Shown: one piece after another, positions 15,778-37,140 of the stretch
Layout of the letters: every line of letters begins with the position of its first letter
Numbering within the stretch: the stretch's first letter is position 1
Origin: a virus
Reading direction: 5' to 3' (one strand)
Virus record (IMG/VR): IMGVR_UViG_3300013103_000004
Span: 1 to 37,251 of that record
DNA length: 37,251 bases
Notes under the pieces: model-generated
Told to the model about the DNA's origin: nothing
The model's database searches: none
The model's input: the letters and a program-made list of their open reading frames with translations, nothing else
Program-made: the position numbers and the translations under genes

Positions 15778-15794
15778 AGTCTATTAAAAAAATA

Positions 15795-15816: not shown

Positions 15817-15848
15817 TGTTGTTGGAATGTCCAACATATTGCTGACTT

Positions 15849-15878
15849 ATTCTAACCACAAGTGTTAGGATTTGTCAA
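15849..15878 (-). promoter_or_regulatory. Sigma70-type promoter before the internal-protein block
   Basis: TTGACA (15873-15878), 18-bp spacer, TAGAAT (15849-15854) on the minus strand. The -35 lies inside the last codons of the upstream glycosyltransferase. Transcription would begin near 15842, make a ~50-nt leader with two hairpins and reach the terminator at 15795-15816. Confidence 0.65.
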
Positions 15879-21117: not shown

Positions 21118-21378
21118 TTATAAACTATTAATTTCGTCTGGATATTCATTGGCTTCTTTCACTTCGCTTATATATCCAGCCTTTGCAGTTTCTATTATAA
21201 ACTTTTGTACTGCGTCATTAAAACATTCTTTTTGAGTTACAGGGTTATCAATTTCTTTACCTTCGCCGTCTGTTATCTTTTCCGTCCAACCTCTTTGCTT
21301 ACAGAACCAATCTAATAACTTAACTTTCTTTTCTGTATTTAAATTAGTGTTTTGATTTATGTAGTTTAGTATGTCCAT
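21118..21378 (-). CDS. Hypothetical protein next to tail fibre, predicted leaderless (86 aa)
   Basis: Not recognised. Helical, with an aromatic KLLDWFCKQRGW motif, DGEGKEIDNPVTQKECF and an acidic C-terminus. It lies directly after the fibre gene, where fibre chaperones or assembly factors are often found, but no family match is claimed. An extended -10 (TGTTATACT, 21384-21392) ends 5 nt before the ATG, so its own transcript would be leaderless. Confidence 0.6.
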   Translation of the reverse strand: MDILNYINQNTNLNTEKKVKLLDWFCKQRGWTEKITDGEGKEIDNPVTQKECFNDAVQKFIIETAKAGYISEVKEANEYPDEINSL

Positions 21379-21383
21379 AATTT

Positions 21384-21392
21384 AGTATAACA
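21384..21392 (-). promoter_or_regulatory. Extended -10 giving a leaderless start at 21378
   Basis: TGT-TATACT on the minus strand, identical over nine bases to the box at 10351-10359. Only five bases (AAATT) separate it from ATG, so the +1 base should be at or within one base of the start codon. No -35 is seen. Confidence 0.55.
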
Positions 21393-21398
21393 CCTAGT

Positions 21399-23816
21399 TT
21401 AAGTAACTGTTCCTCCTAGTTTATTTGCTATACCCCTGACAATCATTTTGTGTAAGTACGCACTTGCTCCTAAAGTATCAGCGGCATCATTCCCATCTCT
21501 CCAAATTGTTAAACTTAGTATTTTATCTCCTGCGTCAAACGCAGAGGCAGGAATTACACAAGTAGAATGGACTAACCCATTAGCAGTTGAAGAGCTTTCA
21601 GCTAAACAGTTAACAGTTGTTGTTGCTGTATCTGTCATATCTTCATCTACTGCCTTGAATTGATATCTTACCTCCCAATCACAATTTGCGGAAACTGTAG
21701 GACTATCCCAAACTAGTATTACTTCTAAGTTCTCTGTATGATCCCATCTGCCAGTTATTCTTATGGTTGCGTGGATGTGTTCTTCCTGCCCATCTGAGTA
21801 TTCGTAAGCAGTCCCAAGCCCCCTGTTTACCTTGGTTGCTGATTGGGAGGGTGGCTCTTTAAAGTTTGTATTGTCTATTTCCCAACCTATCCAAAACCTT
21901 GCTGTTCCCTCCATTGTCATTCTGCCGTCTGAGGCAAGTAGTGTTTGGTTAGTCCCATCGCCAAACCTATGAGCGGTAGTAGCCCTGTAATCCATATAGC
22001 CGTCTGCTAGAGAGTCTATATATTCGTTTCCGTCTGTTTGAGTAAAACTGACCTTATCTCCAAAATGGACTTCTCCTGCGTTGGTATAGATGGCGTAATT
22101 GAGGGTTGTTGCATTATTTTGATCTTCAAGGTATAGACCATAAAGATTGACCCTTGTACCAGCCGGATGTGGAGTTTGAACATATAACCCATATCCATTA
22201 GTAATTGTAGCAGATGCCCCATTCTGATCTAATCTAAAATGTCCAACATAAGCATTTGTAATTGTTATATTCTGATCATTAGGATTGATCCTAAAAAACC
22301 CACCATATACGTTTGTTGCATTACCTTTCAACGGCGTAGCATAAAATTTACCACCATATAAATTTGTGATGGTACCAGTTGATGAATGCCTCCCACTGAA
22401 CCTGCCGCCCTCTGCTTGACCATAATTAACCGTTCCAAGAGTAGATGTTTGACATAATATTCCTATAATTTGACCCGTAGTTTGGCTGGCTGGACTTGTA
22501 AAGTCTGCACGTACATCGGTACCTACATAAACGCCAGTTGGAGTAGCATCTGTTTTTACAAAATGAATCTTAACTTTATTAAATTCAGTTGATACAGCCC
22601 CAATTCCAAGACTGCCATCTTCTTCTATGGCTGACAATATTGTCCCCCCACTATCCTGCCACTCCTGAAGATTGGCTGATTGGGCGGCGGCTCCTTTGAC
22701 TATTAGACCTTTGGTTGTTGAGGTTGAACTTACAATATCTAGCATTGCCGTTGGAGCAGTAGTATTAATTCCCACCTTAACCGCCCAGGTACCAGTGCCA
22801 CCCAATATCAAAGATGAATTTTGGGTTACCTGAGCATACGCACCAAAAGCAGATGCGTTGTATAAAGTGGCTGTTGTGGAGGTTGTACCATCAGTGTAAC
22901 CAGCCTGCCTTCCTATAAAAGTATTATTGCTATCAGTTGTAATTGCCCGCCCTGCATTGTCACCAATAGCCACATTACCTGCCCCCACAGTGCTATTTTG
23001 CAAAGCTGATATTCCAATGGCTACATTTACAGAACCAGATGTACTTGTTTTTAATGTTGAATTACCAAGCCCAATATTTCCACTTCCAGTTATGTTAAAC
23101 AACGATTGCAAACCAATGGCAAAATTGCTATTCCCAGTTTTATTATTAAATAGTGCTTGAACCCCAAACGCATGATTGTTAGTCCCAGTGGTGATATTTT
23201 GTCCAGCAGCATATCCAACACAAGTATTAAAGTTACCTTCTGTTAAATAAAATAAAGCGTCTACACCAACAGCGGTATTTTGTATTCCTGTTGTTAATGT
23301 ATAGAGGGCATCTGCTCCTATACCAGTATTATCATGTGCAGAAGTCGCAAATCCACCAACTCTATATCCAAGATATGTATTGTTCATGCCGTCAGTTCCA
23401 CCGCCAGAAACATCAATTGCATCCCCAGCAAGCCATCCCAACACCAAATTTGTATCGCTGTTTGGTTCTGTTTTTACCTGATACCCTTTTAAAATAATAC
23501 TTGGAGCAATAGTATCCACCGTCAACACATTAGTCCCATCTGCTTGGTTAACTTGAAAGGCAGTAGTGGAATTAGTAGGTTGAATGGTTAAGTCGCCCGT
23601 TATGGGGTCATTGGAAGCGTCTAGTTTGAGATAGCGGGCGTCTAAAGAGGCTGTATCTAGTTGTAATTCTCCACTGTTATTGGTCTTTAGCCTTTGTAAA
23701 TTAGTTCCATCGTATCCTAATAACTCAACTGCAAGTATGTCAAAATCTTTGTCATAAGATTTAACCAAAACATTTTGGGGGCTTCTTTTAGTTTGGCTAT
23801 TATCTTGGGTTATCAT
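21399..23816 (-). CDS. Tail fibre with YadA-like head repeats (805 aa)
   Basis: N-terminal anchor of ~55 residues (DNSQTKRSPQNVLVKSYDKD) followed by LDARYLKLDASNDPITGDL, a linker frequent in phage fibres. Residues ~130-310 hold repeats of the type NTxxGxxALxxxTTGxxN (TGIGADALYTLTTG, FNTCVGYAAGQNITTG), as in YadA/trimeric-adhesin heads, so a trimeric beta-roll is expected. The C-terminal third is beta-rich and probably binds the receptor. It is the main candidate for host recognition. The start overlaps the stop of a 55-residue paralogue of its own anchor. Confidence 0.8.
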   Translation of the reverse strand: MITQDNSQTKRSPQNVLVKSYDKDFDILAVELLGYDGTNLQRLKTNNSGELQLDTASLDARYLKLDASNDPITGDLTIQPTNSTTAFQVNQADGTNVLTVDTIAPSIILKGYQVKTEPNSDTNLVLGWLAGDAIDVSGGGTDGMNNTYLGYRVGGFATSAHDNTGIGADALYTLTTGIQNTAVGVDALFYLTEGNFNTCVGYAAGQNITTGTNNHAFGVQALFNNKTGNSNFAIGLQSLFNITGSGNIGLGNSTLKTSTSGSVNVAIGISALQNSTVGAGNVAIGDNAGRAITTDSNNTFIGRQAGYTDGTTSTTATLYNASAFGAYAQVTQNSSLILGGTGTWAVKVGINTTAPTAMLDIVSSTSTTKGLIVKGAAAQSANLQEWQDSGGTILSAIEEDGSLGIGAVSTEFNKVKIHFVKTDATPTGVYVGTDVRADFTSPASQTTGQIIGILCQTSTLGTVNYGQAEGGRFSGRHSSTGTITNLYGGKFYATPLKGNATNVYGGFFRINPNDQNITITNAYVGHFRLDQNGASATITNGYGLYVQTPHPAGTRVNLYGLYLEDQNNATTLNYAIYTNAGEVHFGDKVSFTQTDGNEYIDSLADGYMDYRATTAHRFGDGTNQTLLASDGRMTMEGTARFWIGWEIDNTNFKEPPSQSATKVNRGLGTAYEYSDGQEEHIHATIRITGRWDHTENLEVILVWDSPTVSANCDWEVRYQFKAVDEDMTDTATTTVNCLAESSSTANGLVHSTCVIPASAFDAGDKILSLTIWRDGNDAADTLGASAYLHKMIVRGIANKLGGTVT

Positions 23817-23980
23817 AATGCTACTTTTAATTTTCCATCACTGGTAACCTTAATTCTTTGTAAGTTAGTGCCATCAAACCCAATCATCTCTACTGCTAAT
23901 ATATCAAAATCAGTATCGTAGGACTTTGTAAATATATTCTGTGGGGTTCTCTCTGTTTGAGTGTTATCTTTATTTACCAT
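23813..23980 (-). CDS. Stand-alone copy of the tail-fibre anchor (55 aa)
   Basis: A 55-codon frame starting MVNKDNTQTERTPQNIF. Aligned without gaps to residues 1-55 of the 805-residue fibre, 32 positions are identical, including KSYDxDFDILAVE and GxDGTNLQR. It ends where the fibre's linker begins and overlaps the fibre start by 4 bases. It may be the remnant of an older fibre gene, or a short protein that competes for or caps fibre sockets. Confidence 0.8.
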   Translation of the reverse strand: MVNKDNTQTERTPQNIFTKSYDTDFDILAVEMIGFDGTNLQRIKVTSDGKLKVAL

Positions 23981-24380
23981 ATCTTGCCAAATTAAACTTT
24001 ATTTTATCGCAATTTCTCAAGAATTTAACATATTCTGAAACGACCTCAATTTTAACTATTGGTCTTTCGTTTTTGTCTATGTTAGTTATCTTTTCCATTT
24101 TTTTTAATGCTTCTTTTATGGCTTCGACATTATTGGGTAGTTCTCCTTTTTCAATTCTATCGTTAAAAAATTCTTGTATAAGTGATATTTCTTTTGAAAA
24201 ACCTCCATTTGGGTCATTCCAAGTATCACCTAGTTTGTAATATTCGGCTACAAAAGGTCTGCCATTTTCAGATTCGTAATCCTTATAAGGAACGATTGTC
24301 TTATCTGTGCTAACGGTAGTCTTATCTTTTGCTTCGGTCTTTATATCTACAGTTGGTTCTGTTGGGGTTCTAAATGGCAT
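23970..24380 (-). CDS. Hypothetical structural-operon protein (136 aa)
   Basis: Thr/Lys/Asp-rich disordered first 30 residues (TVDIKTEAKDKTTVST), then a helical domain (SLIQEFFNDRIEKGELP, AIKEALKKMEKITN). GAGGAG lies close upstream of the ATG. Not recognised; the place between capsid and fibre suggests a virion or assembly role. Confidence 0.65.
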   Translation of the reverse strand: MPFRTPTEPTVDIKTEAKDKTTVSTDKTIVPYKDYESENGRPFVAEYYKLGDTWNDPNGGFSKEISLIQEFFNDRIEKGELPNNVEAIKEALKKMEKITNIDKNERPIVKIEVVSEYVKFLRNCDKIKFNLARYGK

Positions 24381-24597
24381 TTCTTCTCCTCAACATATCT
24401 TCTCTAATATCTTTGGTGTTTTGAGTTTTCCCTTTTCTTGTTTCTCTTAGTAAAGCCTCTCTGGCACTTTTAGTCCAACTGTCTTCGTTTCTTATCTTTT
24501 TACCAGTTTCCTCAATTACTTTTTTCATAACTGGGTCGCGAGTGTTTTTATACTCCCTGCGGAGTTGTTGTAAATCTGCTTGTCTTGTTTTGTCCAT
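24370..24597 (-). CDS. Small basic helical protein after the capsid gene (75 aa)
   Basis: Highly charged and helical throughout (RQADLQQLRREYKNTRD, REALLRETRKGKTQ). Not recognised. It starts in an AT-only leader (two copies of a ~16-bp A/T repeat at 24605-24640) with no Shine-Dalgarno. Overlaps the next gene by 11 bases. Confidence 0.65.
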   Translation of the reverse strand: MDKTRQADLQQLRREYKNTRDPVMKKVIEETGKKIRNEDSWTKSAREALLRETRKGKTQNTKDIREDMLRRRNAI

Positions 24598-24643
24598 AAT
24601 TTTATTAATTTTATTTTAACAAAAATTTTATTTTAACAAATGC

Positions 24644-24673
24644 GGGGATACAGTTAAGGGCGTCTGTATCCCC
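24644..24673 (-). terminator. Perfect 10-bp hairpin after the major capsid gene
   Basis: GGGGATACAG and CTGTATCCCC pair perfectly around a 10-nt loop, 9 nt beyond the capsid stop. What follows leftward is AT-rich but not a clean U-run, so it may be a partial terminator or a 3' stabilising structure that raises capsid mRNA relative to downstream genes. Confidence 0.65.
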
Positions 24674-24681
24674 TATCTCGA

Positions 24682-25635
24682 CTAAACGCTAGTGAAACGA
24701 CAACTTAATGCCCAATTACTGTTAAGTAATTTGGTTGCATAAGAACCCGCCCACGAAATTTTAGTGATTCTACCAACAGGTGAGTTTGAATCCACCACGT
24801 TAGGAAGAATATAAAGTTTCGGAACGTCTTGTGCTAAGTCGTAAGTTCCAAATGCGTCAGAGCCGTGAACATAAGTATAGAACCTTGTAACACCCGAAGA
24901 TGCTGTTGATGCCGCTTCTGTTCCAGACGATAAGTCTTTATTCAAAAGCCATCGAACCTGGTATAACTCACCCATCTCTCCTTTGTAAAGTTTCTTTACA
25001 TCAGAATAGACTTTGGAATTAATCCAAGTTGTATCTCCCAGCAATCTGTGTTTGCTATAAGGGTCTGTCTTCCCCATAAAAGTCCCGTCTTTATAAGCAC
25101 GAGCCTTATTTAGTTCAAGCTGTCTCACCATCAAACGGATATTACAAGCATCCAAAACATCGCCTGAGGCGATGCTGGCTACATCGTGTCCATTTGGGTA
25201 ATAGGCTGTCCCATTTTCAAGCTCATTCCTAACCAAACGGTTAAGAGTTTCGCCCATATTTTGACCGACTAATTCGACTTTCTCCTTAGCACCTGAATCA
25301 ATAGAAACCAAAGTCTCCATCTTTCCAGAGTTTACGGTTAAACCATAGGCTGAAAGAGTCATCGAAACGGTGCAAGCTGTGACGGCACAGGTTACAGGGT
25401 TAGAAGCCTCTCCCAATGGGGTAGTAATAATACTTAGTGGTTCGTAACGCGTAAAGTTTACGGTGTGTCCTGAATTAACAGGGTGAGTTCTTTTTTGAGA
25501 ACCCTCTTTCAATATCAAGTCATACTCCGCCCTAGCTAAGAAAACTTTTTCGTAGTAGGTCATTATCTCTGCAGATAACGATGAAGTAGTATTGACATTG
25601 GTTGCACCGGATATTCCGCTACCGACTACTGCCAT
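24682..25635 (-). CDS. Major capsid protein (N4-gp56 / P22-like HK97 fold)
   Basis: 317 residues. HVNSGHT-type P-loop region here reads NSGHTVNFTRYEPL (~54-67), followed by the E-loop-like TPLGEASNPV and the YGLTV ... GQNMGETLNRLVRNEL helix, the pattern of N4-gp56 family capsid proteins. It follows a scaffold gene, as expected. AGGAG precedes the ATG. It forms the icosahedral shell. Abundant expression is suggested by the strong hairpin after the gene. Confidence 0.85.
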   Translation of the reverse strand: MAVVGSGISGATNVNTTSSLSAEIMTYYEKVFLARAEYDLILKEGSQKRTHPVNSGHTVNFTRYEPLSIITTPLGEASNPVTCAVTACTVSMTLSAYGLTVNSGKMETLVSIDSGAKEKVELVGQNMGETLNRLVRNELENGTAYYPNGHDVASIASGDVLDACNIRLMVRQLELNKARAYKDGTFMGKTDPYSKHRLLGDTTWINSKVYSDVKKLYKGEMGELYQVRWLLNKDLSSGTEAASTASSGVTRFYTYVHGSDAFGTYDLAQDVPKLYILPNVVDSNSPVGRITKISWAGSYATKLLNSNWALSCRFTSV

Positions 25636-25672
25636 ATTTTTTACTCCTATTTAATTTTACGCCAAGTTAAGG

Positions 25673-26416
25673 TTAAGTCTGAACAATCCCCAGTTCCCTT
25701 TCTAGTTCTTGTATAGACTTTTCCTCTGCTGATTTCGTTGGCTTTCTAACTGAAGTTGGTTTTACAGCGGTTTGCGAAGCCTGTTTGGCTAATTCCTCGC
25801 CTACCTTTCCAACTTCTTTGGCTACCGACCTTTTATAAGGTTTCATCAGTTTATCAACAAAGCCTTTGACATCTGCGGAGTAGGGGTTGGCTCGAACCTT
25901 TGCCTCTACTGCTTCAGTAACCGATTGAGATAAGTCTTTATCAAAAAGGTCATTATCAGGGTCGAGTTCGGGATATTTCTGAACAACCGCTTGAGTGTCA
26001 GACTGTATTTTCAAAGACGCACTTTGCTGTTTAAGTCGCAAATTAACAATCGCATCAGCTCTTCTGGCAACATCGTTACCATATTGCTCTGGGGTTATTT
26101 CTGCCCCCGGTTGGATTGGAGGTGTGTATTGTGGCACATCAGGCGAACCGCCTGTTAGTTCCTCAACCCTTTCAGATAGCGATTTGATTTGCTCCTCAGC
26201 TTGGCGTGCCTTTTCTTCAGCCTGCTTCGCACGAGCATTCAATTCTCTAACTCGATTAGAAAAGCCCTTTTTAGACTTCTCACCTGTTTCAGCTTCAGGT
26301 TGAACCTCCTCCGTCGATTCGGTTTCCTTGACTTCCTCAGTAGCTTCAGATACTGGCGTGGTATCAGCGTTTGCTTCCTCGTTTTCGTTTAACGCCATCT
26401 TTTGACTTTCGTCCAT
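25673..26416 (-). CDS. Capsid scaffolding protein
   Basis: Acidic, disordered N-terminus (EATEEVKETESTEEVQPEAE), a coiled coil at ~55-90 (NARAKQAEEKARQAEEQIKS), a Pro-rich hinge (DVPQYTPPIQPG) and a basic, helical C-terminus (KPTSVRKPTKSAEEKS). This layout and its place immediately before the capsid gene are diagnostic of scaffolds. Starts in an AAAACT-ATG context without Shine-Dalgarno. An in-frame ATG five codons in could also serve. Confidence 0.85.
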   Translation of the reverse strand: MDESQKMALNENEEANADTTPVSEATEEVKETESTEEVQPEAETGEKSKKGFSNRVRELNARAKQAEEKARQAEEQIKSLSERVEELTGGSPDVPQYTPPIQPGAEITPEQYGNDVARRADAIVNLRLKQQSASLKIQSDTQAVVQKYPELDPDNDLFDKDLSQSVTEAVEAKVRANPYSADVKGFVDKLMKPYKRSVAKEVGKVGEELAKQASQTAVKPTSVRKPTKSAEEKSIQELERELGIVQT

Positions 26417-26502
26417 AGTTTTAATAACTTTTAACCATACCCGTAAGGTGATATGAGATTACCCAAGCAAAGAGCTTGATTGTAGGCACATAATGCACAC
26501 AA

Positions 26503-26715
26503 TTAAACCCTCTTCTTTAAGATTGGCTTACCCTCCTTAGTTTCACCAACCATAACCTTATCAGGTCCAATAAATATTGCGTGTTGTAGGTCGCAACTTT
26601 TACAAACGAGGTAAAAACCTTGTTGCCTCCAGTTATGGCGACCTTTGGGAACGAATTTAAAAACTTCCTCATAGGTTTCATTTACCTCCTCCGCTTTCAC
26701 ACGCTTCCTTTGCAT
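26503..26715 (-). CDS. Small CxxC phage protein (70 aa)
   Basis: The core HNWRQQGFYLVCKSCDLQHA, then IFIGPDKVMVG, matches a small protein found near portal/scaffold genes of other phages, function unknown. Only one CxxC pair plus His is present, so a metal site would need a partner. Overlaps the preceding gene by 38 bases. A competing ATG frame in the overlap gives a less protein-like product. Confidence 0.65.
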   Translation of the reverse strand: MQRKRVKAEEVNETYEEVFKFVPKGRHNWRQQGFYLVCKSCDLQHAIFIGPDKVMVGETKEGKPILKKRV

Positions 26716-26995
26716 CGTTGACTTTGTTTAGAAACTTTCTAACAATGTCTTTGACTAAACTAATAACTATGGTGTTTCGTCCTATTTCTTCAAATGTAGC
26801 CCCGCTAGTAATGGCTGTGTCGTTGATTTTATCTAGGTCGGATATCATCTTTTCTATTATTTTAACTAAATACTGCCAACCGTGTGATTTGGACATTGTA
26901 TATAACGAGGTTTCCTCATCGGTTGGTCCTTCAGACTTTTTTGTTTTAGTTAGTGCTGGTATGTTAAAAAACTTTGGTTTTATAGCTTCAGACAT
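26678..26995 (-). CDS. Hypothetical head-region protein (105 aa)
   Basis: The frame is open further upstream, but the ATG at 26995 has GGAGG 5 nt before it and overlaps the portal stop by 8 bases, so it is chosen. Helical core (HGWQYLVKIIEKMISDLDKI, VISLVKDIVRKFLNKV) and Gly-rich end. Not recognised. Confidence 0.65.
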   Translation of the reverse strand: MSEAIKPKFFNIPALTKTKKSEGPTDEETSLYTMSKSHGWQYLVKIIEKMISDLDKINDTAITSGATFEEIGRNTIVISLVKDIVRKFLNKVNDAKEACESGGGK

Positions 26996-28748
26996 TTTGA
27001 CCTCCTTGTGGCATACCTTGTTGTGCTGGCACACCTTGACTTTGCATTTGTTGCACCGCTTGAATAAATTGTTGAGTGCCTTCATCTAAAATCCGGTTAG
27101 TCATATCTTCTGGCTTTTCTTCTTCAATTATCTTATCCCAGTCTTGTAGACCTGAGTTAACTATTGACCTTTTAAGTAATTCTCCTACAGATACTTTGAT
27201 ATTTCCTAATTGGGCATAACCTGTTTGTATGGCTTGCTGTTTCATTTCGGGGTCTTGAAGTATCATACTTAATAATCCGTTTACATTTTCTTGCTGGGAT
27301 TTTTGGTCAACTAAATAAGTCGAACCACTTACAATTTCATAATCATATAAAATATTACCTATCTTTCCTTTTGAGATAGTTAACTTGCCTGTCTTTTTGT
27401 CATATATATCTTGAATATCTTCATACTGTGAGGCTAATTCTTCTATTTCATCTTTGAACATTCTAATTGCTACCCCACCAGAGTTCTTTTTAGACATTAA
27501 ATTGACCATTTTGTTTACAACTTTAGTAATAAATTGCTCCATATAATACCTATCAGCATTATCTCTTGTGTTTTCTCTTGCCCCCTGCATTTTCAAGGCT
27601 TCTGGGGTTTTACCAAACCCTGCTTCGGTTTGTTTGGTAACTGAGGTATCGGTAGTCCCAAACATATTAAGTAATGAGGCATTGGCTATTTGGAATGTGT
27701 TATTGAAGGTGGATATACCTAAGGGACTTAGATTGACTGGTTGGACTGCATTATTTATTTGATTTCTAACCAACCATTTTGCCCCTGCTTTCATTTTAAT
27801 TGAACTCATAGAGGCTATGTTGTCTTTGTTGATTAGAACTGGAGGATAAATGCTTGTTTTAACTCCGTCTAGATATAAGTTCCAAACAGAATTAACCACG
27901 TGTTGCATCGTTCCTCCTCTTTCGGCATCGCCCATACCCATAAAGTCGTCCATTAAAGGAATAGAATATTTTTGAACTACTGGCAATTCTCCGTTATCGT
28001 GGGGATTCTTTATTTCTCTGAAGTTTAAATCGGCGTCAACACAATAATCTGTCCACTTGTCTTTTTCATACATTGTTAAGACTTCGTAATAGCCATCTGA
28101 TTTGGTTCCCTCTGCTTGGGGGTATTTGTCATCAGTCCTTTGTGTTTTCTCTCCTGCTGATTTTTGGGGGTTAGATTTTTTCTTTAATATGTCTACAATC
28201 TTTTTGATATTTTTAAACTCTTTGTCTTTTAACTTTTTCTCAAAGAATGAGATTGGTTGCCAACTTCTAACGATAATATAATCACTATCTTCAATTGATA
28301 CCGCCCCTACTTGAGGGAATACATCTCGTATATTAAGTAACCATAAATCAGGACCAGCGTAACCATTCTTTTTAACTGTCCAATCCACTAAACCATAGTA
28401 ACTACCATATAAACTAGAATAAATATCAACCATCCGCAATTTAGTAAGGAAATTGAATTGAGAATTAGCGTTTTTAAGAATATATTTGTCTAGGACTAGG
28501 TTCATTAACCTTGATGTTCCCTCATCATTTCTGCTTATAGCCCTGACTTTTCCTGTAGAGTTTTGAGCCATAACACGATATGCCCTTTCAATCATCAAAG
28601 TCGAAAGTTTAGGGTCAAAGACGTGCGACCTGGCATCGTTGTGGTTTGATAAGGAATTATGAAACAGTTTCTCATATTCATCCCAATCATCCCTCTTTTG
28701 TTTAAGGTATTCGTATGACGCTTGTTTTCTTTCTAAAATTATGCTCAT
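26988..28748 (-). CDS. Portal protein (podoviral type)
   Basis: The translated product from the ATG at 28748 is 586 residues and starts MSIILERKQASYEYLKQKRD; an upstream in-frame start at 28784 would read through the terminator stem and is rejected. The N-terminal YEKLFHNSLSNHNDARSHVF and WLLNIRDVFPQVGAVSIED segments resemble P22-type portals. The C-terminus is Gln/Gly-rich (QAVQQMQSQGVPAQQGMPQG). Forms the dodecameric DNA channel. The ATG follows directly on a seven-T run, without a normal Shine-Dalgarno. Confidence 0.85.
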   Translation of the reverse strand: MSIILERKQASYEYLKQKRDDWDEYEKLFHNSLSNHNDARSHVFDPKLSTLMIERAYRVMAQNSTGKVRAISRNDEGTSRLMNLVLDKYILKNANSQFNFLTKLRMVDIYSSLYGSYYGLVDWTVKKNGYAGPDLWLLNIRDVFPQVGAVSIEDSDYIIVRSWQPISFFEKKLKDKEFKNIKKIVDILKKKSNPQKSAGEKTQRTDDKYPQAEGTKSDGYYEVLTMYEKDKWTDYCVDADLNFREIKNPHDNGELPVVQKYSIPLMDDFMGMGDAERGGTMQHVVNSVWNLYLDGVKTSIYPPVLINKDNIASMSSIKMKAGAKWLVRNQINNAVQPVNLSPLGISTFNNTFQIANASLLNMFGTTDTSVTKQTEAGFGKTPEALKMQGARENTRDNADRYYMEQFITKVVNKMVNLMSKKNSGGVAIRMFKDEIEELASQYEDIQDIYDKKTGKLTISKGKIGNILYDYEIVSGSTYLVDQKSQQENVNGLLSMILQDPEMKQQAIQTGYAQLGNIKVSVGELLKRSIVNSGLQDWDKIIEEEKPEDMTNRILDEGTQQFIQAVQQMQSQGVPAQQGMPQGGQNV

Positions 28749-28776
28749 AAAAAAAGCCCCCATCAGGGAGCTGTCC
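28749..28776 (-). terminator. Leader terminator abutting the portal start codon
   Basis: Leftward: AGCTCCC-TGAT-GGGGGC followed by seven Ts that touch the ATG of the portal gene. The stem is almost the same as at 15795-15816. In full-length mRNA the stem would also bury the start region, so it may control translation as well as transcription. Confidence 0.8.
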
Positions 28777-28804
28777 GCACGCATTGTGCCATTGCTAATA
28801 ATTT

Positions 28805-28833
28805 AATATAACACTAAGACTGGTTGTTGTCAA
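28805..28833 (-). promoter_or_regulatory. Promoter for the portal-capsid block
   Basis: TTGACA (28828-28833), 17-bp spacer, TATATT (28805-28810) with TGT extension, minus strand. Consensus -35 and near-consensus -10. Expected start near 28798, giving a ~45-nt leader that ends at the terminator before the portal ATG. A 16-bp tandem A/T repeat lies just upstream (28834-28865). Confidence 0.75.
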
Positions 28834-28854
28834 TTTTGTTAATTTTCAATTTTG

Positions 28855-29028
28855 TTAATTTTCAATTTTATATCTCTTTCTCTTGGCGGTAACAACATCT
28901 AGTGTTTTCATAATCACCAGACCGTTTTTAATTTGACAAGTATAAGTTATCTGTCCGAATTGAATATCAGACGCTTGTTTTTCTATTAGCAAGTGAAGCG
29001 GTAAATTCGGTATCTCGGACGCTTTCAT
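28855..29028 (-). CDS. Small paralogous head-region protein B (57 aa)
   Basis: Begins MKASEIPNLPLHLLIEKQAS; a start three codons further upstream (29037, GTAGACT-ATG) is possible. The pattern L..HL.IE......G.I......NG recurs in the gene before it (28967-29167), so the two look like diverged tandem duplicates. They overlap in different frames by about 60 bases. Function unknown. Confidence 0.5.
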   Translation of the reverse strand: MKASEIPNLPLHLLIEKQASDIQFGQITYTCQIKNGLVIMKTLDVVTAKRKRYKIEN

Positions 29029-29167
29029 AGATAACATAGTCTACCAAATTTCCTCTGTTTACTTTCAATACAAAGTTTATCGTTCCATTTTTAATCCTTT
29101 GGATGTCGGATTCTATATCCAAGTGGGCTTGTAAATTCTTTGGATTTAATTTTACTCCATATTTCAT
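28967..29167 (-). CDS. Small paralogous head-region protein A (66 aa)
   Basis: KLNPKNLQAHLDIESDIQRI then NGTINFVLKVNRGNLVDYVI describes a small alpha-beta protein of a type seen next to terminase genes in other phages, function unknown. ATG overlaps the terminase stop by four bases, so translation is coupled. Confidence 0.6.
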   Translation of the reverse strand: MKYGVKLNPKNLQAHLDIESDIQRIKNGTINFVLKVNRGNLVDYVIYESVRDTEFTASLANRKTSV

Positions 29168-30414
29168 ATATATAATCCATCTAAATTTTCCTCAGGGGGG
29201 AGTTCGACTACTTGTGGTTTTTTATAACTTACGGCGAAATAGCGTATTGCATCCATCGCATCGTCATTTACTTTATACGGAACTTCCTTTATTACGCCAT
29301 CTTTTCTACTTTCCATCCATCTATATCTCTCAAACTCATCAGCTATCCAAGTTAAATTTTTATTAAACATTAATGTAGGCTTACCTGTGTCGTTTCTAAT
29401 CTTTAATAATCCTGCTACTTTAGCTATTCCGTGTTTAACACTATCACTTGCTTTGTCTACAGAACCAAAATAAACACCATATTCTGCCAACTGTTTAATA
29501 TTCATTGGCTGTGCTGAATCTGCCACTGGGTTTGTAATATAACGACCAGAGTCCTTAATCTTGACCACATCTGCTATTTGTTTCTCTATAAGACCTGCCT
29601 TATAAAGCCCATCGTATGCATAAATCTCACTACCATCGTTTTTTATGGCAAAATATATTAAAGCGGTTTTATGTCCAAAACCAAAATCTAATGACCTTGT
29701 AAATGTCCAATGTGCGTTGTTTGACAAGTCTGGAATTTCAACCATATGTTTATCTCTATCAAATTCTTTGTAAATAAGACCTTCCATTTTTCTAAACTCA
29801 CCCAACCATTCTTGAGCGAAAGAATCCTCGTCCATTTCTCGCTTGGCTTGGTCGATTTCTTCTTTGTCAATATAGGGATTGTCGTATGAAGTAAAGTGAA
29901 AGTATGTCCAATCGTCATCAACCTTCTCTGTAAGCTCTTTAAAATGATTAAAACCATTGGGTGTTGAAATAAACATTACTTTAGCTCTGCTGTCCGCTAA
30001 GGTGGGTCTAATGACCTTCCACGACTCTTTCCACCTAGCAAAAAACGCAACCTCGTCAAAAATACAAAAATCTATCCTATTTCCTCTTAGGCTGTTTGGG
30101 TCTTCTGCCCCCTTTAGTAAAATGTCGACATTCATTATAGTGGAGATTTTAAGTTTGGTTTTATTTGTTGATTTAATCATCCCCTTTGGAATCAGTTCTA
30201 GTAACATCTCCCACATAATTGATTCTGCCTGTTTATAGTTTGGGGCGATATACCAAACATAACCTTTTCTTTTTTTTTTGTAGTTTTGAACAAAAGCCAA
30301 TATCTCTATTGCTGATAGATATGTTTTACCTGCTCTTCTTCCACAGTTTATTACTCTATACCTATGCTTGTCTTGGTATACTTTGTATTGCCATTTACTG
30401 AACCTTATTTTCAT
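29164..30414 (-). CDS. Terminase large subunit
   Basis: ATP-driven DNA packaging motor and nuclease. Walker A GRRAGKT (residues 25-31), Walker B FCIFDE (116-121, Asp120/Glu121), coupling motif STPNG (150-154). RNase H-like nuclease acidic residues are Asp243 (LDFGFGHKTA), Asp299 (VADSAQP) and Asp385/388 (DDAMDAIRYF). 416 residues is in the normal range and all motifs are intact. Overlaps the small subunit gene by 20 bases. Confidence 0.95.
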   Translation of the reverse strand: MKIRFSKWQYKVYQDKHRYRVINCGRRAGKTYLSAIEILAFVQNYKKKRKGYVWYIAPNYKQAESIMWEMLLELIPKGMIKSTNKTKLKISTIMNVDILLKGAEDPNSLRGNRIDFCIFDEVAFFARWKESWKVIRPTLADSRAKVMFISTPNGFNHFKELTEKVDDDWTYFHFTSYDNPYIDKEEIDQAKREMDEDSFAQEWLGEFRKMEGLIYKEFDRDKHMVEIPDLSNNAHWTFTRSLDFGFGHKTALIYFAIKNDGSEIYAYDGLYKAGLIEKQIADVVKIKDSGRYITNPVADSAQPMNIKQLAEYGVYFGSVDKASDSVKHGIAKVAGLLKIRNDTGKPTLMFNKNLTWIADEFERYRWMESRKDGVIKEVPYKVNDDAMDAIRYFAVSYKKPQVVELPPEENLDGLYI

Positions 30415-30772
30415 CTTTGGGCGGAAGTATAACTAACTTTTCTCCTCCAGTAGTAACATCGGTCTTCTCTTTCATTCCGTGATTGTTTTGGAGTAATAGT
30501 TTGACTATTGTCGAATTAACTTCTTTGCCACCATATATGCCGTCGTTTATTAGTTGTTTCTTCTGATTTATCTTGATGGCTTTCAAAGAGTCGCGAAACT
30601 TCTTGTGTTTTTTCACCCATCTATAAATTGAGTGTTTAGATACTCCCAATCTTATGGCAAAGTCTTCAACCATTGGCAATCTGCCAAATCCACACTCATC
30701 TAAATATCTCCCAACTTCTTCACAGTATTCTTCTTTATATTTGGACGGTCTCCCGCCGTTGGCTCCTCTCAT
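30395..30772 (-). CDS. Terminase small subunit
   Basis: N-terminal GRPSKYKEEYCEEVGRYLDE and helix-turn-helix FAIRLGVSKHSIYRWVKKH (residues ~38-56) followed by KFRDSLKAIKINQKKQLIN, the standard layout of small terminase subunits that recognise pac DNA. Directly precedes the large subunit. Its ATG is 5 nt after an extended -10 box, so the mRNA should be leaderless. Confidence 0.88.
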   Translation of the reverse strand: MRGANGGRPSKYKEEYCEEVGRYLDECGFGRLPMVEDFAIRLGVSKHSIYRWVKKHKKFRDSLKAIKINQKKQLINDGIYGGKEVNSTIVKLLLQNNHGMKEKTDVTTGGEKLVILPPKDENKVQ

Positions 30773-30777
30773 ACTTG

Positions 30778-30805
30778 ATTATAGCACAGTTCTCGCCAGC
30801 GAGAA
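30778..30805 (-). promoter_or_regulatory. Terminase promoter with a palindromic operator
   Basis: Extended -10 TGC-TATAAT (30778-30786, minus). Immediately upstream, at 30790-30805, is the perfect palindrome TTCTCGC-TG-GCGAGAA, covering about -20 to -35, where a dimeric repressor or activator could sit. The start codon follows the -10 by 5 nt. Confidence 0.65.
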
Positions 30806-30815
30806 AATTAGGATA

Positions 30816-31217
30816 CTAAATAAAACTTTTTTTATCATTTAATTGGCCCATATTGTCGACAATATCTCTGTAATAACACATATTTTTGTTTGACAAAAAC
30901 CCGACATAGTAAGCCTTTAAGATACCACTTCTCTCATAAACAACAGACTTAATCATATAATCTTTGTGTCCAAACTTTCCTTTTTCTACAATTATTTCAT
31001 ACACCATAGCCCCTTTTAATGACCCATTCTTTATCTCTCTCTTGTTCACAGGTCTTTTTCTCGCCCACATTGAAACATCTGTCCCAAGACCGTTGACTTT
31101 AGCCTTTAATTTAATCCACTCTGGAGTGTTATCGGGGGTTAATTTTATCCCCACTTCATTTTTGTATTTCTCCTGTAGAAGTTTTTTGTTGTCTAGTATC
31201 TGTTTTATTGATTGCAT
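30816..31217 (-). CDS. Hypothetical protein between initiator and terminase (133 aa)
   Basis: Not recognised. A basic alpha/beta protein: N-terminal helix (SIKQILDNKKLLQEKY), a central AKVNGLGTDVSMWARKRPVN and beta strands (GAMVYEIIVEKG, VVYERSGILKAYYVG). Starts in an AAATAAACT-ATG context with no Shine-Dalgarno. Could be a packaging or replication factor by position only. Confidence 0.65.
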   Translation of the reverse strand: MQSIKQILDNKKLLQEKYKNEVGIKLTPDNTPEWIKLKAKVNGLGTDVSMWARKRPVNKREIKNGSLKGAMVYEIIVEKGKFGHKDYMIKSVVYERSGILKAYYVGFLSNKNMCYYRDIVDNMGQLNDKKSFI

Positions 31218-31231
31218 AGTTTATTTAATTT

Positions 31232-31990
31232 TTAATGGTTCAACAGACTTCCTATGTAATCCACATCTTCCCCTTGTGGATTTTTTCTCCTGAATAATAT
31301 AGTTGGGGTCATTTTATCTTTCCAAAACTTATTTGAGGGTATGTTTCTAATTGCTATCTCTATGTCTGGTATTTCGTATGTTTGTAACCAGTATTCTAGT
31401 CCTTTTAGTATTGCCTTTATGGATTTGTATTTTGTTTTCATTACCTTGTTAAACAAATCAACATAAATTTTAGCTAACTCCTCTAGGGTGTATTTTTTAT
31501 GAGTTGAAGAACTTATGTATGTATTATCTTTAACACTCTTAACACTCTCTAATACATTCTTGTTAGTTGTCCCTTTATTGTGCCTCCATTGTGCCTTTAT
31601 TGTGCCTTTATTGTCCATTCCATTGTCCATTTTGACTATGTCGTCATACCCTTTTACCGTAATTATCAAGCCAAACGGCATTGCTTTAATGTCCATTCCA
31701 TTGTACCATTTTTGCAGTATTTCTATAGAACGGCGGACTTTCTTGCGTCCTATTTTTAATTCTTTGGCAATTTTTGATACTTTTAGAACACATTGACCTC
31801 TGTTTAACTCGATAGAATAATCTCTGTTAGCGTGTACAAATCTAAGTAGTTTTTTCTTGTTTTGGCATAGACTCAATATCTCTCGAAATAAAGACCTTTC
31901 TAAAAATGTTAGATTTTCATCATTGTTTAGGTCTGTCGGGGTCGGCTGTCTCCAGCAGTTTGGGTTTTTCATATTCAGATTCAAAATCAT
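31232..31990 (-). CDS. Replication initiator-like protein (DnaD/replisome-organiser type)
   Basis: Residues ~25-110 form a winged helix (LTFLERSLFREILSLCQ ... VLKVSKIAKELKIGRKKVRR), as in phage replication organisers. A charged linker (105-165) is followed by a DnaD-like helical C-terminus (KYTLEELAKIYVDLFNKVM). The linker DNA (31566-31632) carries six direct repeats of an 11-12-bp unit, as lambda O carries its origin. No polymerase or primase is encoded, so it would recruit the host replisome. Translation could start at 31990 or at the ATG at 31972. Family placement is moderate. Confidence 0.6.
   Translation of the reverse strand: MILNLNMKNPNCWRQPTPTDLNNDENLTFLERSLFREILSLCQNKKKLLRFVHANRDYSIELNRGQCVLKVSKIAKELKIGRKKVRRSIEILQKWYNGMDIKAMPFGLIITVKGYDDIVKMDNGMDNKGTIKAQWRHNKGTTNKNVLESVKSVKDNTYISSSTHKKYTLEELAKIYVDLFNKVMKTKYKSIKAILKGLEYWLQTYEIPDIEIAIRNIPSNKFWKDKMTPTILFRRKNPQGEDVDYIGSLLNH
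31566..31632. repeat. Iteron-like array (candidate replication origin)
   Basis: Six consecutive copies of (A/G)TTGTSC(C/A)TYY start at 31566, 31577, 31588, 31599, 31610 and 31622, i.e. spaced 11,11,11,11,12. A further ATTGTACCATT lies at 31700. The period is about one helical turn and not a multiple of three, so it cannot reflect a peptide repeat. AT-rich DNA flanks it at 31510-31560, as in iteron origins. Confidence 0.65.
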
Positions 31991-32189
31991 TAACTATGTG
32001 TTTCAAGTCAGAAATTAGCCCAAGATAAAAAGCGTGAACCTCCTTGATTTCACTTCTGGGCAACGAATGAAATGGAGAAAAGGCTTTGTTAATTTGTGAG
32101 TAAGAAAAAGATATCTGTGCAACTCTCTGTAGGTATTTTCTGATGGAAAGCGTATCTGTGTAGTATTGAGTTTTCGACTTCATATTCAT
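31920..32189 (-). CDS. Hypothetical protein, first gene of the leftward block (89 aa)
   Basis: Not recognised. Helical protein (TLSIRKYLQRVAQISFSYSQ ... FYLGLISDLKHIVNDFESEY). Two starts are possible, 32189 or 32183. Overlaps the initiator gene by 71 bases, an unusually long overlap that suggests coupled expression. Confidence 0.6.
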   Translation of the reverse strand: MNMKSKTQYYTDTLSIRKYLQRVAQISFSYSQINKAFSPFHSLPRSEIKEVHAFYLGLISDLKHIVNDFESEYEKPKLLETADPDRPKQ

Positions 32190-32262
32190 ATTTTATTAGT
32201 AACTAAACTAACAATATACTATTCAACTTAGAAAGTAAATTAGTAAAAACTATATCAACTTT

Positions 32263-32276
32263 ACTTCTTTTAAGAC
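32263..32276 (+). repeat. Inverted repeat arm, left
   Basis: ACTTCTTTTAAGAC; its exact reverse complement lies at 32388-32401. The arm lies upstream of both leftward promoter candidates. A pair of 14-bp inverted sites 111 bp apart is suited to looping by a dimeric regulator. Confidence 0.7.
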
Positions 32277-32387
32277 CTATTATTTATCTCTGGCGTCAAT
32301 CTAACTTAAGCAGTAAGTATTAAGAAAACTAAGGAAATACGGAAAAACTACTCGAAAACAAATCCCACATAAGTTTTAGGTTTTGTA

Positions 32388-32401
32388 GTCTTAAAAGAAG
32401 T
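32388..32401 (-). repeat. Inverted repeat arm, right
   Basis: Exact reverse complement of 32263-32276. It ends 11 bp upstream of the -35 of the rightward promoter at 32413, the usual position for an activator site. Confidence 0.7.
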
Positions 32402-32412
32402 TAAAAAATCGA

Positions 32413-32441
32413 TTTGCATTATCTTTAATCTATGATATAAT
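32413..32441 (+). promoter_or_regulatory. Rightward promoter of the short hairpin RNA
   Basis: TTTGCA (32413-32418), 17-bp spacer, TATAAT (32436-32441) with TGA extension. Expected start near 32448. It points at the hairpin terminator ending at 32511. Confidence 0.65.
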
Positions 32442-32447
32442 CAATTA

Positions 32448-32513
32448 CCACTGCACAAGTGAGAAAACACCTCGGAAATATACTTCCCGTTAGTTAATCC
32501 CGGGGTGTTTTTA
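32448..32513 (+). ncRNA. Putative ~65-nt hairpin RNA with intrinsic terminator
   Basis: AAAACACCTCGG (32464-32475) pairs with CCGGGGTGTTTT (32500-32511) over 12 bp with one G.U, enclosing a 24-nt loop and ending in a T-run. A CACT/AGTG mini-hairpin precedes it. The unit sits directly before the promoter of the HTH gene, so it is either a free small RNA or an attenuated early leader. Confidence 0.55.
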
Positions 32514-32524
32514 GTTTACAGATA

Positions 32525-32533
32525 TGTTATAAT
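32525..32533 (+). promoter_or_regulatory. Extended -10 giving a leaderless HTH gene
   Basis: TGT-TATAAT; the ATG of the HTH gene follows after only five bases (AGATT). The -35 position is occupied by the terminator stem of the preceding hairpin RNA, so this box probably works through the TG extension. Confidence 0.6.
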
Positions 32534-32538
32534 AGATT

Positions 32539-32682
32539 ATGAAGACAAAGTTTTCGTATAAGAAGTTTGCCGAGATAAAGAGTTTAATTGAATTGGGTGT
32601 CCCGATTGCCAAGATAGCAAGAAAGTTCAAAATCACCCGACAAACCATTCACCACTGGCTTAATACTAAATCAACTACTTGA
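32539..32682 (+). CDS. 47-residue helix-turn-helix protein
   Basis: Almost the entire protein is one HTH: FAEIKSLIELGVPIAKIARK then FKITRQTIHHWLN, with the resolvase/Hin-type pattern G-(V)-PIAKIARKF-ITRQTIHHWL. It is the first gene of the rightward operon, predicted leaderless, and its stop overlaps the -35 of the next promoter. It is a strong candidate for the regulator of the surrounding promoters, probably as a dimer. Confidence 0.75.
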   Translation: MKTKFSYKKFAEIKSLIELGVPIAKIARKFKITRQTIHHWLNTKSTT

Positions 32683-32707
32683 CAGATTAGTAAAGATAGT
32701 TTATAAT
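32676..32707 (+). promoter_or_regulatory. Consensus early promoter, copy 1
   Basis: Perfect TTGACA (32679-32684), 17-bp spacer, perfect TATAAT (32702-32707). The 24 bases 32676-32699, covering -35 and most of the spacer, recur exactly at 34735-34758. Start expected near 32714. The transcript has AGTTG/CAACT/AGTTG elements (32714-32745) that can form alternative hairpins. Confidence 0.85.
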
Positions 32708-32758
32708 CAAATCAGTTGAGGCAACAACAACTATAAATGAAGAGTTGAAAAGCAGAAA

Positions 32759-32812
32759 ATGCAGGTGGACACGCAATTAAAAATTAAACTAAAACCAATA
32801 TGGTTAAAATGA
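32759..32812 (+). CDS. Possible 17-residue leader peptide
   Basis: MQVDTQLKIKLKPIWLK, whose TGA overlaps the ATG of the next gene (ATGA). There is no clear Shine-Dalgarno. The exact coupling overlap is the only support; it may be coincidental. Confidence 0.3.
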   Translation: MQVDTQLKIKLKPIWLK

Positions 32813-32970
32813 AAAAGAAACTTGAATGGATAAAAAGGATATACGAAGTATACTTTATTATCTTGGTTACTGGTATGCTCAATCTACTTAGTGTAGGAGA
32901 CTTTGGTTTTGGGGAGCTCTTCGCAATAACAATGATGGCGCTTGCCGTTTACTATATGGAAAAAGTTTAA
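32809..32970 (+). CDS. Small two-helix membrane protein (53 aa)
   Basis: Two hydrophobic segments, IYEVYFIILVTGMLNLL (~11-27) and ELFAITMMALAVYYM (~36-50), with a basic N-terminus (KKKLEW). Unrecognised; early membrane proteins may alter host envelope or exclude other phages. Confidence 0.6.
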   Translation: MKKKLEWIKRIYEVYFIILVTGMLNLLSVGDFGFGELFAITMMALAVYYMEKV

Positions 32971-32972
32971 AA

Positions 32973-33113
32973 ATGAAAAACCTCCAAAAATACAAAGACC
33001 CAAAAACCAAAGAGGAAAGGAAGAGATACAACCAAGAGTTATACGAAGAGTTGAGAGAAGAAGCCATATTAGAACAGTCCCACGCTTATGATAGTTTAGT
33101 AAACGACCAATGA
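32973..33113 (+). CDS. Small charged helical protein (46 aa)
   Basis: Begins MKNLQKYKDPKTKEERKRYN, followed by LYEELREEAILEQ. Highly charged, probably one long helix. It overlaps the next gene by 4 bases. Function unknown. Confidence 0.55.
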   Translation: MKNLQKYKDPKTKEERKRYNQELYEELREEAILEQSHAYDSLVNDQ

Positions 33114-33271
33114 ATTACAAAAAGATAGCCAAAACACTATCCGGCATTTTAGACCCCGATATAAGGCAAGACTCAATAGAAAAAGCATTAGAGCGAGCCT
33201 ATTTAACAGGTAAAAGCGACGAGGCTTTAGAAAGATTGAAATTACTAATTAAAAAAGATTTTACTAATTAA
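33110..33271 (+). CDS. Small helical protein (53 aa)
   Basis: Begins MNYKKIAKTLSGILDPDIRQ, with ALERAYLTGKSDEALERL after it. ATGA-coupled start. Its last codons come from a 17-bp tandem repeat (TTACTAATTAAAAAAGA twice, 33242-33277) that also forms the upstream region of the next gene. Confidence 0.55.
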   Translation: MNYKKIAKTLSGILDPDIRQDSIEKALERAYLTGKSDEALERLKLLIKKDFTN

Positions 33272-33279
33272 AAAAGACT

Positions 33280-33774
33280 ATGAATAAAAAATTCGTTATA
33301 AGCATTCAAGGTAAACAATTCGTAAAGTTTGAAGGACTATTAGATGCCTTTCATAATAATGGTGGAACTTCTATCAAAACTTATGAATTGAAATCCAGCA
33401 CCCCAGAACGACCTATTTTTAAGGCTATTGTAAAAGGTAAAAAAGGAACATTCACTGGACACGGAGACGCCGAAAATACAAATGTTAATAAAATGATAGC
33501 CCCCCATAAATACAGAATGGCGGAAACAAGAGCTATCGCAAGAGCCTTAAGGTGGTATTTGAATATCGGAATGTGTGCGGTAGAAGAGGTGGCTAAACCT
33601 GTCCCGCAGACTAAAGTTGTAGACTTGCCCGAGAAATACGTCAAGCAGTTAAATGCAGTTTCGGATTTATTGACCTTAAATACTTTAGCCAAGAAAATCC
33701 AAACCGAAACTAAGCATAAATACCAAAAATCCTTATTAAATATCTACAATCAAAGAAAGGAGGAACTTAAATGA
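33280..33774 (+). CDS. Putative single-strand annealing / ssDNA-binding recombination protein
   Basis: The segment GHGDAENTNVNKMIAPHKYR then MAETRAIARALRWYLNIGMC (residues ~60-98) matches a motif of phage and bacterial proteins with Rad52/annealase-like roles. It is followed by 4-bp overlap with the YqaJ exonuclease gene, the standard pairing of exonuclease and annealing protein. Function therefore inferred mainly from motif plus neighbour. Starts in an AAAAGACT-ATG context. Confidence 0.6.
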   Translation: MNKKFVISIQGKQFVKFEGLLDAFHNNGGTSIKTYELKSSTPERPIFKAIVKGKKGTFTGHGDAENTNVNKMIAPHKYRMAETRAIARALRWYLNIGMCAVEEVAKPVPQTKVVDLPEKYVKQLNAVSDLLTLNTLAKKIQTETKHKYQKSLLNIYNQRKEELK

Positions 33775-34352
33775 AAATCTATACTTTCGAACAAGGCTCT
33801 GAAGAGTGGTTTTCTGCTAGATTAGCGAAATTCACCGCTAGCACAGCTCAGGCTATCGCAACCGCAGGAAAAGGATTAGAGACCCTAGTCTATAAAAAAC
33901 TTGCAGAGAAGCTAACTAATAAAGCCCCAGAGGCATATTCAAACGAGGATATCGAAAGAGGACACGAACTAGAGGCTATGGCACGAGACGCTTATGAATT
34001 AGAAACTGGAAATATCGTTGAACAAGTTGGGTTTTGTGAATTAAACGAATATGTCGGAGCCTCACCAGACGGATTAGTCAAAGACGGATTAGTAGAGATT
34101 AAATGTAAAAACGATGTTAATTTTATTAAAGAAAGACTAAGCGATGAAATTGAGTCGGCTCATAGGTGGCAAATGCAAATGCAAATGTATGTTACCGATA
34201 GAAAGTGGTGTGATTATGTGGTTTTTAATCCGAATTTTGAAAAGAGTTTAGTAATCAAAAGATTAAAGCGAGACGAAGAGGCTATCAAAAAAATAAAACT
34301 AGGTTTAGACAAAGGAATTAAAATGTTTAAGGATTTGTTAAAAAAACTATGA
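33771..34352 (+). CDS. YqaJ-type (lambda-exonuclease-like) recombination nuclease
   Basis: PD-(D/E)XK nuclease with RGHELEAMARDAYE (63-76), catalytic Asp100 (GASPDGLV) and Glu109-x-Lys111 (VEIKCK), then HRWQMQMQMYV. These are the YqaJ hallmarks. It resects dsDNA ends 5'-3' to feed annealing. GGAGG lies 8 nt upstream of the ATG. 193 residues is normal. Confidence 0.9.
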   Translation: MKIYTFEQGSEEWFSARLAKFTASTAQAIATAGKGLETLVYKKLAEKLTNKAPEAYSNEDIERGHELEAMARDAYELETGNIVEQVGFCELNEYVGASPDGLVKDGLVEIKCKNDVNFIKERLSDEIESAHRWQMQMQMYVTDRKWCDYVVFNPNFEKSLVIKRLKRDEEAIKKIKLGLDKGIKMFKDLLKKL

Positions 34353-34687
34353 AATCAGTAAAGGTAAACACTATCATTACAGGTATTAGAGCCAAAGTAG
34401 ACGGTTCGCTAGGTTTGACTATCTCAACTCCTGAATTAGACCCAAAACAAAAAGTCTTATTTATGGAATTACAAAACATAGAATGTGAGACTACCTTTAC
34501 TCCTAAAGGTGTCAAAGAGGAAGTGACTATTGAAGGCAAGACTGATACTAAAACTCCTAGCCAGCGTCTGCGGTCGGTCTTATTTATTCTTTGGAAACAA
34601 ACTAAAACAGACGAACTATTTGATACTTGGTATGCTAAAAAAATGGAAGGGTTTATTGATTGGGTCAAAAATAAGTTGAGTGTATGA
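34349..34687 (+). CDS. Hypothetical protein of the recombination operon (112 aa)
   Basis: Begins with a beta-rich part (VNTIITGIRAKVDGSLGLTI) and ends in helices (SQRLRSVLFILWKQTKTDEL). Proteins of this look often follow YqaJ in phages, but no function is known to me. TTAAAAAAACT-ATG start context; overlaps YqaJ by 4 bases. The terminator at 34687-34730 begins at its stop. Confidence 0.65.
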   Translation: MKSVKVNTIITGIRAKVDGSLGLTISTPELDPKQKVLFMELQNIECETTFTPKGVKEEVTIEGKTDTKTPSQRLRSVLFILWKQTKTDELFDTWYAKKMEGFIDWVKNKLSV

Positions 34688-34730
34688 AAGGGGAGAGGGT
34701 TGAGAGAGCAATATCAAAGCTCTTTCCTTT
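34687..34730 (+). terminator. Terminator after the recombination genes
   Basis: AAAGGGGAGAG (34687-34697) pairs with CTCTTTCCTTT (34720-34730) with two G.U pairs; an alternative compact stem uses GAGAGAGC/GCTCTTTC. It is followed by TTTTATAT. Separates the recombination genes from the next promoter 5 bp further on. Confidence 0.65.
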
Positions 34731-34734
34731 TATA

Positions 34735-34766
34735 TACTTGACAGATTAGTAAAGATAGAGTATAAT
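34735..34766 (+). promoter_or_regulatory. Consensus early promoter, copy 2 (leaderless)
   Basis: Perfect TTGACA (34738-34743), 17-bp spacer, perfect TATAAT (34761-34766). Shares 24 identical bases with copy 1. The ATG of the transglycosylase follows six bases after the -10, so the transcript should start at the start codon. Confidence 0.85.
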
Positions 34767-34772
34767 GAAATT

Positions 34773-35237
34773 ATGAAAAAAGAAACCTCCGAAACCGTTG
34801 AATACTTAATCTCCTTTATAATCGCAATAATGCTAGCATTCTTTCCAATGGGAATGTTTAACCGACATTTAGCTAAAGAACAGAAAACTCCGACAGTAAC
34901 CCCAACTACAATTCCAACTCCTACCTTAACTCCTTGTAACGAACCTATGTGTTATATAAGAAGAAAAGGTCAGTTGTTGGGATATGACGATTATACTATT
35001 ACCAAGTTTATAGAATTGGCTAAGGTTGAGAGTAGTCTTAATTCCAAAGCTAAGAACCCCAATTCTACCGCTAAAGGACTTTACCAATTTATTGATTCAA
35101 CCTTTGCTCTTTACTGTAAGGGCAATGTATTTAACTACAAAGACAATGTAAACTGCTTTTACTCTATTCTCGAAAGAGAGGGCTATCCTAGAGGCCTAAG
35201 ACACTGGAAAGTAAGTCTAGAGAAAGCAGGACTATAA
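34773..35237 (+). CDS. Membrane-anchored lytic transglycosylase
   Basis: N-terminal membrane segment (residues 11-28, YLISFIIAIMLAFFPMG), a Pro/Thr-rich spacer (39-55), then a small lysozyme-like SLT domain: catalytic Glu86 in KVESSLN and the GLYQF motif (102-106). It would cleave glycan strands from the outer face of the membrane. It is expressed from the early promoter, far from the late lysis cassette, so a role other than final lysis is likely: wall remodelling, entry block or lysis timing. Only ~95 residues of domain; minimal size. Confidence 0.8.
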   Translation: MKKETSETVEYLISFIIAIMLAFFPMGMFNRHLAKEQKTPTVTPTTIPTPTLTPCNEPMCYIRRKGQLLGYDDYTITKFIELAKVESSLNSKAKNPNSTAKGLYQFIDSTFALYCKGNVFNYKDNVNCFYSILEREGYPRGLRHWKVSLEKAGL

Positions 35238-36969: not shown

Positions 36970-37140
36970 ATGAAAATACACAAAATAAAATCCAGTAATG
37001 TTGGCAAGTTGGCTATAGCCCTAGCAAGGATTGACACAGAACTTGTTAAGTTTGTTGGTGAAGAAGAACAACACAAGCCACTATCAGAAAACAGAGACTT
37101 AATCAGAAAATTATTAAAAACATTTATGAACGAAAAATGA
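36970..37140 (+). CDS. Small helical protein at the circular join (56 aa)
   Basis: A 56-codon frame beginning MKIHKIKSSNVGKLAIALAR, ending RDLIRKLLKTFMNEK. Its stop overlaps the ATG of the next gene (ATGA), which in the circular genome is the gene at 9-236. It shows that the early operon is continuous through the join. Confidence 0.65.
   Translation: MKIHKIKSSNVGKLAIALARIDTELVKFVGEEEQHKPLSENRDLIRKLLKTFMNEK

Follow-up and report, generated by a model that had tools for sequence, protein, structure and literature searches.

Four genes in a viral genome have a -10 box so close to the start codon that transcription would begin on the codon itself, which raises the question of whether their mRNAs carry any 5' leader. 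The window, meaning the whole stretch of DNA analyzed here, is the 37,251-nucleotide IMG/VR record IMGVR_UViG_3300013103_000004. Its positions 1-123 and 37129-37251 are an identical 123 bases, and thus the genome is probably complete, either circular or terminally redundant; rightward genes would then extend from 32539 across the junction to ~4894. An 18-bp repeat array of ~19 units (hexapeptide repeats) occupies 36165-36508 (+), inside a 215-aa ORF at 36031. A search of the whole window for Rfam families and tRNAs found none. The four genes in question are:

30395..30772, minus strand: terminase small subunit (TerS), predicted leaderless, with matches to Pfam PF16677 GP3_package (4.6e-15) and to PHROG terminase families
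21118..21378, minus strand: 86-aa ORF, the weakest gene call of the four, with no PHROG or Pfam match and no homologue in related phage loci
32539..32682, plus strand: HTH protein of 47 aa, predicted leaderless, matching Pfam HTH_7 (4.2e-7, above cut-off)
34773..35237, plus strand: lytic transglycosylase, predicted leaderless, matching Pfam SLT (3.6e-5, above cut-off), with a 44% identical homologue in related locus L066

The putative promoter elements abutting them, read from the sequence, are:

30778..30786, minus strand: extended -10 of TerS (also an exact match), with 5-nt discriminator CAAGT, full site TGC TATAAT CAAGT ATG
21384..21392, minus strand: extended -10 of the 86-aa ORF, immediately 3' of the upstream tail gene's stop codon, with 5-nt discriminator AAATT, full site TGT TATACT AAATT ATG
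32525..32533, plus strand: extended -10 of the HTH gene, with 5-nt discriminator AGATT, full site TGT TATAAT AGATT ATG
34738..34766, plus strand: sigma70-type promoter of the transglycosylase gene, 12/12 consensus matches, with 6-nt discriminator GAAATT, full site TTGACA-N17-TATAAT GAAATT ATG

The initial annotation had described -10 boxes ending 5-6 nt before ATG at all four genes, three of them with TGn, and the letters read as claimed. The spacing is 5 nt at 30772(-), 21378(-), and 32539(+) and 6 nt at 34773(+), and the start codon is ATG in every case. The first three sites belong to the extended -10 class, in which TGn adjoins the hexamer, while 34773(+) lacks TGn and has a perfect -35 instead. 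No Shine-Dalgarno (SD) sequence is found in the 5-6 nt discriminators of the four sites. Good SD sites do occur elsewhere in the window, also as first described: SD-like sequences accompany 16 of 52 genes, AGGAGG examples among them. Judged from sequence, the four genes very probably head transcription units and are leaderless, while SD sequences serve other genes. This reading, put forward in the initial annotation, is supported by recurrence of the same spacing in related phages and its absence from controls, by a pyrimidine preference at -1, by the conservation of TerS, and by two of the following elements:

32463..32512, plus strand: terminator-like hairpin, its 3' side rich in T, adjoining the HTH promoter on the upstream side (dG -23.2 kcal/mol, z -3.9)
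34689..34728, plus strand: terminator-like hairpin with a T tail after it (dG -15.6 kcal/mol)
32676..32712, plus strand: second copy of the promoter at 34735 (repeat D4, 92% over 37 nt, 12/12 promoter match)

The first hairpin ends ~15 nt before the HTH -10, and none of 200 shuffles folds as well; the second ends ~9 nt before the transglycosylase -35. Since terminator-like structures thus precede both promoters, the HTH and transglycosylase genes should each need the promoter that abuts them. These hairpins stand against the alternative that survives best, namely that the -10 boxes are real but later or dominant upstream starts yield leadered mRNAs, whose translation would rely on coupling or on A-rich leaders. 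In its favor, TerS and the 86-aa gene sit within a long leftward gene array in which upstream gaps are short, and many other genes of the window lack an SD and are presumably translated from A-rich leaders. The promoters of these two genes have neither a strong -35 nor a terminator upstream, so that a read-through mRNA could also cover them. Leadered transcripts would, however, leave unexplained both the spacing peak at 5-6 nt and the pyrimidine at -1 described below, and as an account of the four genes they are considered unlikely.

The promoter copy at 32676 has no ATG at the end of its discriminator, and therefore a leadered transcript is predicted from it; a near-identical promoter should thus occur once with a leader (32676) and once without (34735). 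A general module of terminator plus leaderless promoter was considered and rejected, as leaderless candidates taken together show no excess of terminators before them (7/31 vs 23/151). Other promoter-like sites of the window also lie close to hairpins. A promoter-like TTTGCA-N17-TATAAT with TG is found in 32413-32512 (+), where a strong terminator-like hairpin ends ~70 nt later; with no ORF noted in between, the segment is a possible small RNA candidate, for which Rfam gave no match. On the minus strand, promoter-like sites of the form TTGACA ... TATATT or TAGAAT lie at 28751-28833 and 15777-15878. Both have a near-identical hairpin, AGCTCCC-NNNN-GGGGGCT, and a T run ~33 nt downstream, adjoining the next gene (a 598-aa ORF in the portal position and a 71-aa ORF, respectively). 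This arrangement could represent attenuation, or just the terminators of the upstream genes.

The start codons themselves might have been misplaced, with the true starts lying downstream and the promoters giving ordinary leadered mRNAs. Conservation among TerS homologues begins at residue 6-7, which indicates that the predicted TerS start is well placed. The HTH protein, which opens the rightward operon, matches its Pfam family from residue 6, and the transglycosylase has a hydrophobic segment at its N-terminus, directly after the start. Inspection showed no alternative start led by an SD. The 86-aa ORF has no homologue by which to anchor its start, and to this extent the suggestion has some footing; for the group of genes it is very unlikely.

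Counts within the window depend on how strictly the motif is defined. When one mismatch is allowed across the whole window, TATAAT-N5/6-ATG does not exceed the expectation from shuffles in either of two counts (19 vs 22.1 and 16 vs 21.9), and the loose motif is therefore uninformative. The strict motif is found at 4 of 60 gene starts against ~0.13 expected (0.125 under a first-order model of the upstream regions), roughly 30 times the expectation (P ~8e-6), by a criterion that is post hoc, having been fixed after the sites were seen. For this reason independent data were sought in related phages, with the window excluded. TerL picked out 20 related viral contigs on an initial scan, and alignments were obtained for 79 loci; the related set comprises 41 closer viral loci and a MAG contig, L023 (434 kb in all, TerL 54-73% identical).

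In the related set, strict -10 boxes precede starts in 8 cases at spacing 5, 19 at spacing 6, and 5 at spacing 7, compared with 2.5 on average at each other spacing; requiring TGn leaves 4, 15, and 2, compared with 0.55. Among extended -10 boxes at spacings of 0-35, 19 of 39 fall at 5-6 (p ~3e-14), and ATG, the codon that leaderless initiation favors, is the start codon in 31 of the 32 related-phage matches at spacing 5-7. Boxes with TGn at spacing 5-7 are absent from the distant TerL relatives (289 kb) and from five named control phages (214 kb, same GC); the one match in the control set, at the repressor of Lactococcus phage Tuc2009, lacks TGn. The distant relative MW202497 yielded no host and has no abutting -10 starts. 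Chance matches in an AT-rich genome, to which the unremarkable single-mismatch counts would be congenial, are scarcely credible given the excess of the strict motif at gene starts and a spacing peak that is repeated in related phages and absent from the control phages.

The base at -1 is a pyrimidine in 25 of the 28 best starts (window and relatives) vs 269 of 481 others (p 3e-4), as is expected where polymerase initiates on the purine that follows. The gene in the TerS position has an abutting extended -10 in six related loci (L007, L017, L021, L034, L035, and L054), in which the discriminators differ and the spacing is the same. Direct TerS homologues in L003 and L015 have no abutting -10, and such a box is found instead on a neighboring gene of the packaging region (TerL in L003, the gene between TerS and TerL in L015); the feature thus appears to be lineage-wide, not fixed gene by gene. 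A separate pattern is enriched at starts that have no abutting strict -10, in which ACT lies immediately 5' of ATG, often within an A-rich leader (AAACT-ATG). It is found in the window at 10277, 15777, 26416, 31217, and 33280 (5/52 vs 0.6 expected) and in related phages at 26 of 457 starts (6.5 expected, p 5e-9); its excess is not significant in the MAG G001, introduced below, or in the control phages.

The best TerL match in GTDB representative genomes, at 59%, is to this MAG (G001, ADurb.Bin212), which lies in the same phylum as G002, whose record bears the title Patescibacteria group bacterium. A 10.6-kb contig of G001 carries the TerL and a 32% relative of the major capsid protein (MCP); mis-binning is possible, and no spacer match was identified. 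Based on gene content, the host is placed with moderate confidence in Patescibacteria, allowing that the contig may be a mis-binned phage. Counting this spacing in the predicted host had been suggested as a check, and the outcome was positive: in 61 relatives of G001 the pattern TGNTATAATN{5,7}ATG, in which TGnTATAAT lies 5-7 nt before ATG, occurs 511 times vs 155 at spacings of 12-14, with 50 genomes higher at 5-7 and 0 lower. G001 itself (381 kb) has a spacing peak at 6-7. The further expectation that such a count could identify the host lineage did not hold, as a Chloroflexota MAG has the same spacing bias (33 vs 8, several being one repeated sequence) and the bias is published for several phyla; host identification by spacing alone was thus rejected. 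Neither of the phyla offered as examples, Actinobacteria and Deinococcus, is indicated, gene content pointing to Patescibacteria. A late-region cassette at 15865-20910 (-) consists of genes that overlap: a glycosyltransferase, an FkbM methyltransferase, a transketolase split into two ORFs, and an epimerase fragment; its transketolase part has 66% DNA identity to a contig of the Patescibacteria phylum.

The leaderless mRNA of phage lambda is that of cI, transcribed from PRM. As there, a phage gene would be translated here from an mRNA beginning at AUG; the lambda gene encodes a repressor, whereas the present four include packaging and lytic enzyme genes and the feature recurs across a phage group. 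Lambda leaderless mRNA is cited in a survey of bacterial leaderless (TA-led) genes, in which TATAAT or TANNNT lies ~12 nt upstream of the start, low-GC genomes show a TG extension, and SD genes coexist (Zheng et al., 2011, PMC3160421). The phage sites resemble TA-led genes in box position, TG extension, and mixture with SD genes; the survey differs in covering cellular genomes of RefSeq 2010, phages not being its subject and "candidate division" going unmentioned. Coexistence with good SD sites, which the initial annotation had thought unexpected, turns out to be usual among bacteria with leaderless genes (PMC3160421). In Deinococcus-Thermus, a -10 motif lying few bases before ORFs has been tested as a promoter of leaderless mRNA, and its spacing is required (PMC12340547). 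The position of the box and its fixed spacing are shared with that system, in which the motif is TANNNT on ~30% of ORFs, whereas in the phage group TATAAT with TGn predominates and marks a few percent of starts. No report of leaderless starts in Patescibacteria or their phages was found in the open-access papers searched, and publications on phages infecting CPR bacteria or a patescibacterium are silent on such starts. What is new is the phage group and the probable host lineage; the mechanism is already known.

What is directly observed is the anatomy of the sites and their recurrence at a fixed spacing, from which we infer that the four sites act as promoters, that the 5' end falls exactly at the start codon, and that translation is leaderless. 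The start codon would adjoin a sigma70-type promoter, in most cases one of the extended -10 class, and RNA polymerase would begin on the A of ATG, the sixth or seventh base past the -10, producing an AUG-first mRNA. Translation of such an mRNA would dispense with Shine-Dalgarno contact; the classical route is through 70S ribosomes with initiator tRNA. Every gene so affected would stand first in its transcription unit, with SD or A-rich leaders used by other genes, most of them downstream, and the phage and its probable Patescibacteria hosts would have the signal in common. A 5-nt discriminator would put +1 on the A at a distance toward the lower limit of what is usual, and transcription beginning 1-2 nt later would lose the start codon. 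Leaderless initiation might also be a regulatory choice in this phage group, such that TerS and other unit-leading genes are translated when SD-led translation falls (late in infection, or on stressed ribosomes), exploiting the reduced ribosomes of Patescibacteria; this idea is a speculative one and considered improbable.

With this finding, the known range of leaderless expression would come to include a phage group and, on the evidence of the same kind of count, Patescibacteria. In these genomes, start-site callers that depend on an SD will put such starts in the wrong position or overlook them, and annotation can easily lose short genes of this kind, such as that of the 47-aa HTH protein.
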